Shown here piece after piece: positions 421-6,209 of a DNA stretch of 64,000 nt (position 1 is the stretch's first letter; the number at the start of each line of letters is the position of its first letter). A program made the translations under genes and the position numbers. The notes below the pieces were generated by a model that had not been told where the DNA came from, did not search any database, and worked only from the letters and a program-made list of their open reading frames with translations. This stretch comes from Neisseria wadsworthii 9715. Its GTDB lineage: Bacteria > Pseudomonadota > Gammaproteobacteria > Burkholderiales > Neisseriaceae. The stretch covers positions 1,762,151-1,826,150 of the forward strand of contig NZ_JH165159.1 in the NCBI RefSeq assembly GCF_000227765.1, read 5' to 3'.

Positions 421-534
421 ATGAAGACCCTAAATAAGCAGGAAATGGAACAAGTTGCTGGTGGTATGTTGATTCCTAATGATAACTGGCGCTGGCGACT
501 CCCTTGGTGGATACGGTATGTACCATTGGTTTAA
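421..534 (+). CDS. double-glycine leader peptide 1, Trp-rich (37 aa)
   Basis: A 37-residue ORF with a strong ribosome site (AGGAGAAG at 408-415, 5 nt before ATG). Its first 15 residues, MKTLNKQEMEQVAGG, match the double-glycine leader of class II bacteriocins and similar peptides, which are cut after GG by C39-peptidase ABC exporters. The predicted mature part is 22 residues, basic and tryptophan-rich (core WRWRLPWWIR). By eye it resembles indolicidin-type antimicrobial peptides, but no homology is claimed. It is the first of five such genes in tandem. The leader is what I see; secretion and antimicrobial activity are inferences. The gene is too short for automatic callers. Confidence 0.75.
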   Translation: MKTLNKQEMEQVAGGMLIPNDNWRWRLPWWIRYVPLV

Positions 535-572
535 CACGTAGTATTTAGTCTTAAATCACGTCAGGAGCTATC

Positions 573-686
573 ATGAGAGAAATCAATAAGCAAGAATGCG
601 AGCATGTGTCTGGCGGCCTAGCAATAAGACCCACTGGACCCATGGCTCCCGCCATTTGGATAATAAGGCTGATCTACGGTAAATAA
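573..686 (+). CDS. double-glycine leader peptide 2 (37 aa)
   Basis: A 37-residue ORF 38 bp after peptide 1, with AGGAG at 563-567 and ATG at 573. The leader MREINKQECEHVSGG follows the same pattern as its neighbours (basic residue at 2, E at 8, V two before GG). The predicted mature part is 22 residues: a Pro/Gly-containing first half (LAIRPTGPMAPA) and a hydrophobic C-terminal half with two arginines and a lysine, plausibly membrane-active. It is followed by a 16-bp perfect inverted repeat at 706-759, so peptides 1 and 2 may form one transcription unit and peptides 3 to 5 another. Function unknown. Confidence 0.72.
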   Translation: MREINKQECEHVSGGLAIRPTGPMAPAIWIIRLIYGK

Positions 687-705
687 AGCTCTTATTCGTT
701 GGCGC

Positions 706-759
706 TCATGTTTTGCCTGTCAGATTCTGGTAACCCATCTTGAGACAGGCAAAACATGA
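706..759. terminator. inverted repeat between peptide genes 2 and 3
   Basis: A perfect 16-nt inverted repeat (TCATGTTTTGCCTGTC at 706-721 against its complement at 744-759) with a 22-nt loop. Each arm carries a degenerate uptake sequence (TTGAGACAGGCA at 741-751 differs from the local DUS complement by one base). It probably attenuates or ends transcription after peptide 2. There is no T-run, so strength is uncertain. Confidence 0.55.
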
Positions 760-802
760 CAGATTATTAAATTTAAATATTAAATTTAAAAAGGAAATTT
801 TT

Positions 803-970
803 ATGAAATTATTAACAGATAAAGAAATGAACCGTATTGTAGGTGGGCTCGCTCCGATTGCTTGGCCTAAAGATCATCCAATTCACCAAAAGTTTGAAAA
901 TGGAAGGGAATTTTTCCAAGCATGGCTTAAATTTCAACAGACTAACCCCTACTGGCAGCCTTTTTACTAA
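803..970 (+). CDS. double-glycine leader peptide 3, aromatic-rich (55 aa)
   Basis: The frame is open from 740, but the ribosome site AAGGAA (791-796) and the conserved leader place the start at ATG 803, giving 55 residues. The leader is MKLLTDKEMNRIVGG. The predicted 40-residue mature part is rich in aromatics and Pro (three Trp, two Tyr, several Phe) and ends WQPFY. The leader starts MKLL like peptides 4 and 5 and unlike 1 and 2, so the array splits into two subfamilies. No Cys is present, so no disulfide or lanthionine chemistry is expected. Function unknown; probably a secreted bacteriocin-like peptide. Confidence 0.75.
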   Translation: MKLLTDKEMNRIVGGLAPIAWPKDHPIHQKFENGREFFQAWLKFQQTNPYWQPFY

Positions 971-1017
971 AATAAGGAAATGATGGAATGAAGTTGCAGG
1001 TAAAACTATAACCTCTC

Positions 1018-1123
1018 TACTGGGTTGTAGACTAAACCAAGCAAATAGAAATGATCCCCCTAACTTAAGGAGAAGTTTATGAAACTATTGCCTGAAAAAG
1101 AAATGGATTGCGTTACTGGCGGA
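1018..1123 (+). repeat. leader/5' UTR duplication unit A
   Basis: About 106 bp covering the untranslated region, ribosome site and leader codons of peptide 4. It is closely similar to 1236-1343 before and inside peptide 5 (shared blocks include GGTTGT, TAAAC, CCCTAA, TTAAGGAGAA and GAAACTATTG). Similarity stops just after the GG codons. The array seems to have grown by tandem duplication with divergence of only the mature-peptide codons. Confidence 0.65.
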
Positions 1124-1219
1124 ATTGCTTTTATACCGGAGTTACCCTTTCCGCGGCTTCCCATCCCAGGATTTCCCATTCCAGGATTCCCACGAAAGAG
1201 GACACACAAAATTGCTTGA
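1079..1219 (+). CDS. double-glycine leader peptide 4, Pro-rich (46 aa)
   Basis: A 46-residue ORF with a strong ribosome site (TTAAGGAGA at 1065-1073, 5 nt before ATG). The leader is MKLLPEKEMDCVTGG. The 31-residue mature part is proline-rich and basic at its C-end (PFPRLP, then PIPGF twice, then PRKRTHK). The repeated PIPGF comes from a 15-nt tandem duplication at 1160-1174 and 1175-1189. The composition recalls bactenecin-type proline-rich antimicrobial peptides, which act inside cells on ribosomes; this is a composition resemblance only. The leader is nearly identical to that of peptide 5, a recent paralogue. Confidence 0.75.
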   Translation: MKLLPEKEMDCVTGGIAFIPELPFPRLPIPGFPIPGFPRKRTHKIA

Positions 1220-1235
1220 ACAAAGCAATAATTGC

Positions 1236-1343
1236 TACTTGGTTGTGGCCTAAACTGTAAGCAAACCAAAATGGTTTCCCTAATTTAAGGAGAATTTAAT
1301 GAAACTATTGATTGAAAAAGAAATGAATTGTGTTACTGGTGGA
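1236..1343 (+). repeat. leader/5' UTR duplication unit B
   Basis: Partner of the unit at 1018-1123, covering the upstream region, ribosome site and leader of peptide 5. It shows the same order of conserved blocks with scattered substitutions and a small indel. The following mature-peptide codons are unrelated to those of peptide 4. Confidence 0.65.
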
Positions 1344-1478
1344 TCCACTTTTTCCATACCGTTGCCCCCTCCTATCGAAGATGTGTTGAAACAGGCGTTT
1401 CCTGCACATCATTATAGACGTGGAATACACATAATCGATCCAATAATCGAACCTCGAACACCTCCGGTATGCAAATAA
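1299..1478 (+). CDS. double-glycine leader peptide 5, Pro-rich (59 aa)
   Basis: A 59-residue ORF, the last of the array, with TTAAGGAGA at 1285-1293 and ATG at 1299. The leader MKLLIEKEMNCVTGG is almost that of peptide 4. The 44-residue mature part has a PLPPP stretch, a middle HHYRRG and an Ile/Pro-rich C-terminal half with a single Cys three residues from... its end (VCK). One Cys cannot make an intramolecular disulfide in the mature part, though a dimer is possible. The array ends about 170 bp later at the DUS stem at 1646-1685. Function unknown. Confidence 0.74.
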   Translation: MKLLIEKEMNCVTGGSTFSIPLPPPIEDVLKQAFPAHHYRRGIHIIDPIIEPRTPPVCK

Positions 1479-2964: not shown

Positions 2965-3978
2965 TCATTCCGTTTTCGGGCTGATTGTTTTATCCAAGCC
3001 TTGTGTCAGCCCATTGATGTCACCATCGTTTAAACCTAGCTCTTTCAACAGGTTGTCAACCAAAGGAGCTTGGCTGCGATAGCGCAAAGCACTGTTAACC
3101 ATTTCGTCGGCCAGATTGCCTTGCGGTGTCGCGCCTTCTATACCTTCTAACGCACTTGTGCTACCGAAACCACCCAAGCCGTTGACTTGAAGAATCTTGA
3201 TATCGTCTTCACGCTCCTGCTCCAATTTGGCATATTCTTCTTCACGCAGGATTTGCAGACGTGTGCGCTCCGCTTCCAGATTTTTGGTTTTAATCGCCAA
3301 ATCCGTGTCCTGCTCAATATCGTTGCGCTTTTTGCGGCGCACTTCAATGGTTTCGGTCAGTTTGGTCAGTTTGGTCAAACCTTCGGCGTCGAACGCGTTT
3401 TGCGGATTGAAAAATTCAAACGCCGTTTGATCAAGCCGATCAGCGACACGGTTTCCAGCTCCAAGCCGTTTTTAAACAAATCTTCCGACACCACTTGCTA
3501 CACTTTCTGCACAAAATCGCCGCGTTTTTCGTGCAGCTCTTCCATGGCCACTTGGGAAGCCACCGCGCGCAGCGCATCCACAAATTTACCTTCCACCAAA
3601 TCTTTAAGCTGCTCGGGCGACATGGTTTTCATGCCCAAAGTCTGCGCCGCTGTGGCTACGCTGTCGGAAGTGGGCTTCACACGCACATAAAACTCCGCCG
3701 CCACATCCACGCACATCCGGTCGCGCGTAATCAAAGCCTGCTACGCTGCGCAGCGCACTTCCAGCCGCAAAGTATTCATATTCACCGGAATCACTTCATG
3801 GGACACCGGCAACACCAGCGCGCCGCCGTTCCATAATCACCTTTTCCTCGCCGAAACCTGTGCGCACAAACGACACCTTCTTGCTCGCACGCTGATACAA
3901 CCGCGCCAGAATCAGGCCGAGCACAAACAAAGCAACCAGCACGATACCGGCAATGCTCGCAATTGAAATCCAACCCAT
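2965..3978 (-). pseudogene. yqiK: flotillin-family YqiK-like protein, degraded
   Basis: Remnant of a YqiK-type flotillin, an inner-membrane SPFH/band 7 scaffold protein. The start (MGWISIASIAG at 3978) gives a single membrane helix followed by ARLYQRAS and the SPFH region, matching E. coli YqiK from memory in order throughout. Damage: a frameshift after KVIME (about 3808-3815), an in-frame TAG at 3741-3743, another TAG at 3498-3500 after DFVQKV, and a frameshift near 3430-3445. About 190 residues of the central coiled coil are also missing, because EYAKLEQERED is followed directly by IKILQVNGLGG. The C-terminal tail (SALRYRSQAPLVDNLLKELG) remains. Longest open pieces: 2965-3378 and 3498-3734. 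Clearly non-functional. Confidence 0.88.
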
Positions 3979-4053
3979 AAACTTTCTTTTCTTCTGTTAA
4001 TGATGACCACACAACAAAATAATTTTCAGACAGGCATATGGATGTTTTACACC

Positions 4054-4284
4054 TCAACTGACCAACAGTAACAACACGCAAAAACCGTCTACGCAATCCA
4101 CGAGAGCAAAGTATAAAACCGGATTTGCCCGGCATCCCAATCGCTTGCCCGCCACCTGATTAAAAAACTGCCAACCAACCTTCAATCTTTTCCGCGCCGG
4201 CCCATGAGAGCAGCCATTTGAAATACAGACTGACAAAACGTAAAAAGCGATTACTAAAAAATAAGCCATCATATAACCGACCAT
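4054..4284 (-). pseudogene. possible small membrane protein remnant
   Basis: Between yqiJ and yqiK. The frame starting at ATG 4284 opens with a hydrophobic segment (MMAYFLVIAFYVLSV). The neighbouring frame then gives a sensible amphipathic stretch (YFKWLLSWAGAEKIEGWLAV), as if a single-base shift split a small inner-membrane protein. I do not recognise it. Given the state of the flanking genes, a decayed third member of the operon is likely, but a non-coding origin is possible. Single DUS copies flank it near 4024 and 4294. Confidence 0.35.
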
Positions 4285-4320
4285 TTACTGCTTTTCAGAC
4301 AGGCATGATTGCTGAAACAG

Positions 4321-4977
4321 CTAATCCACCAAGCTGCCGCTCGGATTGGCAATCGCTTTAAACGTATTCCTCTCCAGCGACACCAGCAACACAGCCTCGC
4401 CTTGTTGCAACCGCTGCCGTCGTCCGGCTCGGCCATCGCATAATGCTGCTGGCCGAAGCCGTCTTTCACACGCACTTCCGCCTGGCTGCCACGTTGCGCC
4501 TCGCCCAACACCACCACGCCGACGCGGCCGGCCAGGCTTTTTTGTTCGACAGCCGTAGTTTCGTCTTTCGGCATGATTTTATAAAGCCGCCCGCCCACCA
4601 CCCGTACAACCGGCAGGCTGGCGAACCACGCTGCCGCAGCAACAAAAAAACCGTTGAGATAGAAGCCGGCAAAGTTTTCAGACAGGCCTGCAAGATATAG
4701 CCGAGCAAACCGAACACGGCCAGAAACACCACCATCAACAACGGAATCTTGCACACATAAAGCCAGCTTAAAAACCGCATCAGTGCGCCCGCATCCGCGC
4801 CGTCCAACCCGATTTCGACATGTGCCGGCTCCGTTAAACTATCGGGCAGCAGGCCGTCGAGCCAATCGCTGATACCGCCGAGCACCAGCGATAAAGTTTC
4901 ACCACACCCAGCAACACCATCAACATAATGGCAACACCGAAAATCCGGGTTTGCGGCGCATTGATTAAATCCCACAT
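4321..4977 (-). pseudogene. yqiJ: YqiJ-like OB-fold membrane protein, degraded
   Basis: YqiJ is the membrane partner normally encoded upstream of YqiK. Start ATG 4977 with AAGGA upstream gives MWDLINAPQTR. The frame shifts after LLGVV into a frame with two membrane helices (KIPLLMVVFLAVFGLLGYILQ). It shifts again near 4620-4640 into the soluble C-terminal region (KIMPKDETTAVEQ ... DGFGQQHYAMAEPDD), and a third time before QGEAVLLVSLERNTFKAI, ending at TAG 4321-4323. The order of these blocks matches E. coli YqiJ as I recall it. At least three frameshifts, so it is dead. Confidence 0.82.
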
Positions 4978-5031
4978 AGTCATTCCTTTGTGCTCTTTAA
5001 CACACTACCCGTTTGTACAAAATCTTTAATT

Positions 5032-5496
5032 TTAAAATATCTTTGACAATGCTCTTAAATTTGATTCCAATAAATCCCAAAATGCCCATGCAAAAAATAA
5101 GTATGCAACTAAGAAAGGCCTGTTCCTGAAAATATTTTTTAACTTTATCTGACTGCTACATTTTTCTTGTAACAAATTCAAAACTTCTTGCTGTTGTTCA
5201 GTCATACAATTTTTCCGAATATCTGTTTCCAACATATCAATGGCCTTTTTGATATGTATTTTCCAACCATCAATAATAAGTTCGTTCCCATATTTTTCCT
5301 TTAAGTCATTTAGCATGATAACTCTGTAAAAATAAGCTATCAGCAAGAGAGAAATTAAACCTTGTATAGGATGGCTACTCCCTAAAGACCATGCTGCAAT
5401 GGTTGCCAACAAAAACCATGGGGCATGATGATTTAAAACCTTGTGATAAAAAGCTATCTGACCGCTCAATCTTTCAATTTTATTAAAATAAAACAT
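5032..5496 (-). CDS. hypothetical membrane protein (154 aa)
   Basis: Intact ORF in the middle of a decayed operon. The frame is open to 5514 through a TTG, but ATG 5496 (MFYFNKIERLSG), with GAGGGA about 10 nt upstream, is the better start. Two adjacent hydrophobic helices lie at roughly residues 28-65 (WFLLATIAAWSLG ... LISLLLIAYFYRVIML). A Lys/Glu-rich cytoplasmic middle contains an EQQQEVLNLLQEK helix, and a third hydrophobic helix near the C-terminus contains FLVAYLFFAWAFWDLL. It is more AT-rich than the remnants around it, which suggests a later insertion. Family not recognised. Confidence 0.6.
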   Translation of the reverse strand: MFYFNKIERLSGQIAFYHKVLNHHAPWFLLATIAAWSLGSSHPIQGLISLLLIAYFYRVIMLNDLKEKYGNELIIDGWKIHIKKAIDMLETDIRKNCMTEQQQEVLNLLQEKCSSQIKLKNIFRNRPFLVAYLFFAWAFWDLLESNLRALSKIF

Positions 5497-5542
5497 TTTG
5501 TATTTTTCCCTCAATTAATCAATCAATAAGCATATATAAAAC

Positions 5543-6209
5543 TTATTTCTTCTTTACTTTCAACACAGCCAGCCGCTCTTTGATCCGGTTGCTGCGGCTT
5601 AAATCTTCCAGCTCTTTCAGCTTGGCCAGTTGCGCAGCTTCGGTGCTGTTGTAAACCGCATTTTGGCAGCCCATAACCGGGTCAAACGTGTTGCCGCTTT
5701 TTCCGGCATCACGCGCAATGCGGTTCAAATCACCGCCTACTGCATCCGCAGAACCTGCCGAACGCTGCTGCGCAGCCCTCCATTCCTACAATTGCTGCTG
5801 CATCTCGCGCTTTTTCGCCTGCAAGGCCGCAATAAAGCTTTCCAGCTCCTTTTCTTGTGCAGCGCAATCGGCAATCGTGTTTTCCAAAACCGGCAAACGC
5901 GCTTCGATATCCATTTGCTCAGCAATGCCCGCCTCGGCCAAATCATCGCGGCCGCTGTTAACTGCAGCCTGCAAACTTTCGCTCAAAGCTTCGTGGCGGT
6001 TGCTTTCATCCACCATTTTCTTAGCGACCAAATGCTTTTGCGACAGTACCTTGCCCAATTCCGCACGCACTTCATCAATCGCCCGTTTGATTTTGCACAT
6101 GCTTTCATTCATTATCGCTTCGGTGCACCCAATTTTCCACAGCATCCACTAAAGCATGAGAACCACCACCAACCAAACGCCCCGCTCTACATGCCAATGT
6201 TTCGCTCAT
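5543..6209 (-). pseudogene. PspA/IM30-family protein, degraded
   Basis: PspA/IM30 proteins are coiled-coil peripheral membrane proteins that protect the inner membrane. Start ATG 6209 (MSETLACRAGRLVGGG) with AGGAA 5-9 nt upstream. The characteristic early helix (SHALVDAVEN) is followed by a frameshift near 6135. The main coiled coil then runs in another frame (MNESMCKIKRAIDEVRAELG ... FIAALQAKKREMQQQL) to an in-frame TAG at 5786-5788, then RNRIKERLAVLKVKKK to the end. Total span equals about 222 codons plus one base, the normal length of the family. One frameshift plus one nonsense codon break it. It groups with the YqiJ/YqiK remnants as an envelope-stress operon. Confidence 0.83.

Follow-up and report, generated by a model that had tools for sequence, protein, structure and literature searches.

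Five double-glycine-leader peptide genes in Neisseria wadsworthii, probably served by a distant C39 exporter

The window, by which we mean the whole 64-kb stretch of Neisseria wadsworthii DNA analysed here, carries near its start five small open reading frames (ORFs) that follow one another on one strand. The array and its repeats are laid out as follows, with net charge counted as K/R minus D/E.

421 to 534, + strand: ORF1, 37 aa; leader MKTLNKQEMEQVAGG (leader E 5.6e-7); mature part of 22 aa with four Trp and three Pro, net +2.
573 to 686, + strand: ORF2, 37 aa; leader MREINKQECEHVSGG (leader E 2.5e-6); mature part of 22 aa with one Trp and three Pro, net +3.
706 to 759, no strand: perfect 16-nt inverted repeat in the gap between ORF2 and ORF3, its arms 22 nt apart; resembles the DNA uptake sequence (DUS) in part.
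803 to 970, + strand: ORF3, 55 aa; leader MKLLTDKEMNRIVGG (leader E 1.3e-5); mature part of 40 aa with three Trp and five Pro, net +1.
1039 to 1132, + strand: 94-nt direct repeat, 81% identical to 1259-1352; the 5' flank, SD site and leader are duplicated in ORF4 and ORF5.
1079 to 1219, + strand: ORF4, 46 aa; leader MKLLPEKEMDCVTGG (leader E 1.8e-6); mature part of 31 aa with eight Pro, net +4.
1299 to 1478, + strand: ORF5, 59 aa; leader MKLLIEKEMNCVTGG (leader E 2.8e-6); mature part of 44 aa with nine Pro and one Cys, net +1.
1637 to 1694, no strand: DUS inverted repeat, one arm exact and the other imperfect, which closes the array segment.

These lengths agree with the original prediction of five consecutive tiny ORFs, each with its own ribosome site; an SD-like AGGAG or AAGGA indeed lies 5-8 bases before the ATG in all five. 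For ORF3, a longer in-frame start (TTG at 740) is also possible. Despite the 94-nt duplication, the mature parts of ORF4 and ORF5 have no common sequence, a pattern indicating that the leader module was retained and the product changed. The array is poorer in GC than the window (39.8% versus 45.9%). The inverted repeat at 706-759 is a possible terminator candidate that is absent from the terminator-scan output; promoter and terminator scans of the array region gave signals not above those of shuffles. Rfam returned ten matches in positions 1-1800, every one below its gathering score, plasmid and phage collections had no match to positions 1-1700, and none of the five peptides had a Pfam match above cut-off. 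Some of the sequence upstream of the array reads N, so elements there could be missed.

The leader comprises 15 residues in all five ORFs, ends in GG, and has the hydrophobic, acidic and Gly-Gly positions of a GG leader. The predicted pattern, M(K/R)xLxxxExxxVxGG, holds strictly in ORF1, ORF4 and ORF5 and proved slightly too narrow for ORF2, where position 4 has I instead of L, and ORF3, where position 12 has I instead of V. Synonymous variation is seen in the leader codons. The NCBIfam signal TIGR01847 (cut-off 15.7 bits) scored 16.1 in ORF3, above the cut-off, 15.7 in ORF1, at it, and 13.2 in ORF4, below it, with no match in ORF2 or ORF5. This 15-residue signal in ORF3 and ORF1 is the only curated bacteriocin-type match over or at cut-off; Pfam Bacteriocin_IIc reached 12.9 bits on ORF1 against a cut-off of 27.1. 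A leader matrix made from 29 leaders at the exporters of five other genomes (score threshold at least 12; their choice used an earlier matrix built on this genome's leaders, a mild circularity) picked out the five array ORFs alone within the 64-kb window, with scores of 30.9, 17.2, 18.3, 13.5 and 12.7. Forty dinucleotide-shuffled windows yielded 0.075 matches per window, with a maximum of one and a top score of 15.4. ORF4 (13.5) and ORF5 (12.7) do not singly exceed the best shuffle, but five consecutive matches on the same strand do.

The mature parts are rich in Pro (17.6%) and Trp (5.0%) compared with 4.4% and 1.2% in 40 mechanically picked large ORFs (18,150 residues). None of 2000 base shuffles reached the in-frame Pro and Trp values, and the two other frames of the array hold 7.1% and 4.5% Pro, 1.3% and 1.9% Trp, and nine stops each. 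As one query against 82 other Neisseriaceae genomes, the mature parts had no orthologue, in a search that may miss very short peptides. The lone outside match (G041, 30% identity) spanned four stop codons and was taken as chance. No immunity gene was recognised by eye in the ORF list for 421-1478, where small unfamiliar proteins could escape notice.

The genome (2,467,075 bases in 16 contigs) contains one C39 match (C1:2241900-2242286, E 2.1e-36). It falls outside the window, in which the original prediction had rightly recognised no exporter, and the accompanying suggestion that the exporter might be unlinked was borne out: a C39-ABC transporter with an HlyD partner is encoded on the same contig, at a distance of about 477 kb. 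Its gene (C1:2240238-2242331 of this genome, G000) specifies a 698-aa protein in which a C39 domain is combined with ABC membrane and ATPase domains; the closest solved structure to the C39 domain is 6mpz, an AMS/PCAT protease domain (E 4.1e-20). Q21, C27, H100 and D116, which we take to be the C39 active-site set, are identical in all 20 aligned exporters. The end of the HlyD-like gene overlaps the exporter start (TIGR01843, 131 bits, below the 209-bit cut-off), and a TolC-like gene lies nearby on the opposite strand (TIGR01844, 230.6 over a cut-off of 225.15). TIGR03796, for the NHLP/NHLM export system, gave 498 bits where 853 are required. Seven GG-leader ORFs flank the exporter. Among the ORFs of the locus that were scanned were the three exporter parts, five peptides, a TonB receptor and a LysR-type ORF about 4 kb past TolC; none of them was a sensor kinase.

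A leader profile, A2, was trained on ten leaders of this genome, five from the array and five linked to the exporter, and it recovers both sets together, as its training on both would favour. In the genome it found 19 places at E <=10, and the 11 at E <1e-4 are the ten training leaders and C1:1711340. Five weaker places can be read as small leader ORFs: C1:378462, 247412 (ending GA), 1314233 (a 28-aa ORF), 2243922 (at the exporter) and 695922 (ending GS); three further places cannot. One extra ORF of 43 aa at the exporter locus was found apart from these places. Thus, the genome has about 17 GG-leader ORFs: five make up the array, seven surround the exporter and five stand alone, the weakest of the last group being uncertain. 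Because a C39-ABC/HlyD/TolC set with linked peptides bearing the same type of leader exists in the genome, that part of the original prediction which spoke of a secreted multi-peptide system of Neisseria is well supported by sequence insofar as it concerns secreted GG-leader peptides.

The exporter-linked peptides are all net negative (7 of 7, -1 to -4) against +1 to +4 in the array, so the substrates would not be uniform. Compared with G006, the closest relative, six exporter-linked pairs have pN/pS values of 0.23, 0.11, 0.09, 0.24, 0.13 and 0.84; the pooled value is 0.15 for five pairs, omitting the sixth (0.84; 25 of 48 residues alike), and the seventh ORF (L003 12061-12225) is unpaired. 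Relative to G006, the exporter-linked peptides look to be under purifying selection.

At 1e-60, 15 of 46 genus genomes, the present one included, have a match to the exporter. Twelve of the 46 have it at >=65% identity over its length, one of them with an internal TGA; two others hold fragments, and one merely another ABC protein. In the exporter tree, clade A comprises the present genome, G006, G008, G011, G021, G022 and G043a (support 0.999), and clade B comprises G012, G015, G029, G035, G039 and G043b (support 0.906). At a threshold of 0.001, 10 of 46 genomes have leader matches: 7/7 of clade A versus 3/39 others (Fisher p 2.2e-6), a grouping drawn after the leader matches were known and including the genome that trained the profile, without which the count is 6/6. 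The association is weaker for all 12 full-length exporters (7/12 versus 3/34, p 0.0012) and when fragments are counted too (7/14 versus 3/32, p 0.0046). Matrix matches at clade B loci (5 of 6, with none at one) are mostly in longer peptides of 72-125 aa, which are Gly-rich (20-23%) at the three loci checked. Together, the association with clade A and the peptide type of clade B identify the array leaders as of the clade A type. The original prediction had staked itself on a C39 exporter somewhere in the genome and on leaders conserved in relatives; clade A exporters and leaders do co-occur in the genus, but the mature parts are not conserved.

Other genomes of the genus have their own sets. 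In G008 the exporter is at 1110 kb and nine GG ORFs fall at roughly 528-540 kb, so an array is unlinked there too; this remote array (L174 5453-16767) is cassette-like, spans 11 kb, and includes a 40-aa precursor in three identical copies, with other peptides downstream. G021 and G022 have additional GG ORFs, single or paired. In G011 (L165 3104-8493), 16 GG-leader ORFs lie beside one exporter, several with Trp/Pro-rich mature parts of 13-25 residues. GG-leader ORFs, with one or two leader matches, are also present in G026, G030 and G042 (L179, L180 and L181), three genomes that lack this type of exporter; the peptide of G026 looks, by eye, like the one encoded at C1:378462 in the present genome. 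Ten genus genomes, the present one not among them, have short-frame C39 proteins of about 167-260 aa, a length at which an ABC part is not expected. These are possibly NapP-like, and such peptidases may thus extend beyond the nap island of N. gonorrhoeae.

The array occupies the stretch between mfd, on its upstream side, and a 342-aa gene, on its downstream side, and DUS inverted repeats bound the segment. In G006, which has an exporter 98% identical to the present one, the two flanks and the DUS hairpins are the same and surround other genes and no GG peptide: a disrupted reading frame for a trypsin-like protease and an ORF resembling a transposase, each identified by eye. These conserved flanks around different content, found in one relative, are the arrangement of a minimal mobile element, and the array site fits an exchangeable islet on the strength of that one difference. 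mfd is present in 45 of 46 genus genomes, ours included, and no GG ORF at a matrix score of at least 12 lies past it in 40 loci, which represent 40 of the 44 other mfd genomes and of which two hold <800 bases. The uptake sequence TGCCTGTCTGAA, presumably the wadDUS dialect, occurs 47 times in the window versus 0.01 expected. In the available part of the source, wadDUS is ascribed to N. wadsworthii (PMC3630211); a literature search for the letters themselves turned up no paper. The 342-aa gene itself (1803-2831, - strand) matches no Pfam or NCBIfam family over cut-off; it is kept in G006, where a transposase-like ORF interrupts it. Just downstream of the array, at 2965-6145 on the - strand, lies what appears to be a membrane-stress operon in decay. 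It consists of fragments of a flotillin (Flot, Band_7), of YqiJ, whose N and OB parts fall in different frames, and of a PspA/IM30-like protein, whose 25 bits stay under the cut-off.

On balance, and with modest confidence, we favour reading the locus as an exchangeable cassette of bacteriocin-like peptides that are secreted by an unlinked, shared type I system and act antagonistically. From these sequences we infer translation, export, cleavage, exchange by transformation, the unmodified state and antagonism. The array would encode five precursors of short, unmodified, cationic peptides, each leader docking on the distant C39-ABC protein, whose C39 domain would cut after Gly-Gly. The mature peptides would then leave across both membranes via the HlyD adaptor and the TolC-like channel. 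That this particular machine exports the array peptides seems to us highly probable. The same machine would serve the seven exporter-linked peptides and several single genes; given its position elsewhere on the chromosome, it probably serves a scattered, exchangeable stock. The cassette between the DUS hairpins would be exchanged by natural transformation, and its peptides would most likely target neighbouring cells, as a mixture of bacteriocin-like agents that perhaps damage membranes.

The strongest rival has the peptides weaken the organism's own population in stationary phase, as agents of autolysis or sibling lysis that release DNA for transformation. It owes this rank to the gonococcal Naps, small cationic GG peptides that promote stationary-phase autolysis; in the available part of that report, antimicrobial activity was not detected and competitors were not inhibited (PMC11798529), which counts against a bacteriocin reading. 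All five array peptides are likewise cationic, and no immunity gene was recognised among them. However, the island of the Naps also encodes NapP, a C39 peptidase, and a channel of the FapF type, and the present genome has no second C39 match; the array leaders go with a full ABC system, and the short C39 proteins belong to ten relatives. We consider a role in autolysis unlikely.

Next in rank is decay: the array might consist of duplicated leader cassettes with randomly read 3' parts, little expressed and without function. Such leftovers would account for the lack of orthologues, for the unrelated 3' parts of the duplicated ORF4 and ORF5, for a promoter signal not above chance and for the broken flotillin/YqiJ/PspA-like block just downstream, but hardly for five ORFs that are all open behind SD-like sites, for a frame-specific Pro/Trp enrichment or for leader residues kept through synonymous codons. 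We find this explanation quite improbable. Last, and less probable again, comes signalling, in which the peptides would be pheromones sensed by other Neisseria cells; for the meningococcal GG peptides it was one of two options put forward, and the less likely one, in the part of the report available (PMC2784325). Five unrelated, unconserved mature sequences are a poor fit with a signal-receptor pair that is kept, and the scanned ORFs of the exporter locus include no sensor kinase.

Several known systems come close to the array. Class II microcins of the colicin V type are unmodified GG-leader peptides secreted by C39 ABC type I systems; the array products are shorter, and no immunity gene was recognised with them. 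In the prochlorosins of Prochlorococcus and the competence-linked bacteriocins of pneumococci, one C39 exporter serves dispersed GG precursors, a layout like the present one, although these are other peptide classes, the prochlorosins being modified lanthipeptides. The comparisons that follow draw on the available parts of the cited reports. GG peptides and C39 exporters are already known in Neisseria (PMC2784325, PMC11798529), and the variant here is an unlinked, DUS-bounded array with Pro/Trp-rich products. N. meningitidis 8013 has five GG peptides and two C39-ABC/adaptor units, and resembles the present genome, from the same genus, in having several peptides, leaders ending in GG or GA, and a C39-ABC protein with an adaptor (PMC2784325). 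Its mature peptides are described as Gly-rich and very basic or acidic (PMC2784325), whereas those of the array are Pro/Trp-rich, 22-44 aa long and encoded about 477 kb from the exporter. The nap island is similar in its several small cationic GG peptides and in being a low-GC islet, but NapP and the channel NapF adjoin the peptides there (PMC11798529), and the present genome has an unlinked full ABC transporter instead. A nap-type C39 peptidase stands apart from any ABC part and with the peptides, and the sole C39 domain here lies inside the 698-aa ABC protein. The mcbABCI bacteriocin system of Moraxella catarrhalis also combines a GG peptide, a C39-ABC protein and an adaptor, but unlike the array has a single 101-aa precursor and an immunity gene in one operon (PMC2761928). 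The exporter of the present genome shares 55-56% identity with exporters from Moraxella and Acinetobacter, M. catarrhalis not being among the species matched. In the open full-text literature on such peptides and on the uptake sequence, this array is unnamed in titles and abstract beginnings among the matches listed.

A broader proposal, which we hold possible but rather doubtful, is that some Neisseria maintain a varying stock of very short, secreted, Pro/Trp-rich cationic peptides in arrays apart from a shared C39 exporter, swapped through transformation as DUS-bounded cassettes, so that leader and exporter stay fixed and the active parts change; in the present genome, the cationic array and the anionic exporter-linked set may even work in pairs. 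Indolicidin, a host peptide, has a similar Pro/Trp-rich cationic make-up. If the favoured reading is true, one exporter with scattered, exchangeable cassettes would explain the quick renewal of secreted peptides in some Neisseria. Further, the array would supply short peptides as candidates for antimicrobial or lytic activity, as would relatives such as G011, with its 16 beside the exporter. The array peptides could then be set directly against those that promote autolysis in the gonococcus, which bears on whether the GG peptides of Neisseria serve as weapons, lysis agents or signals.
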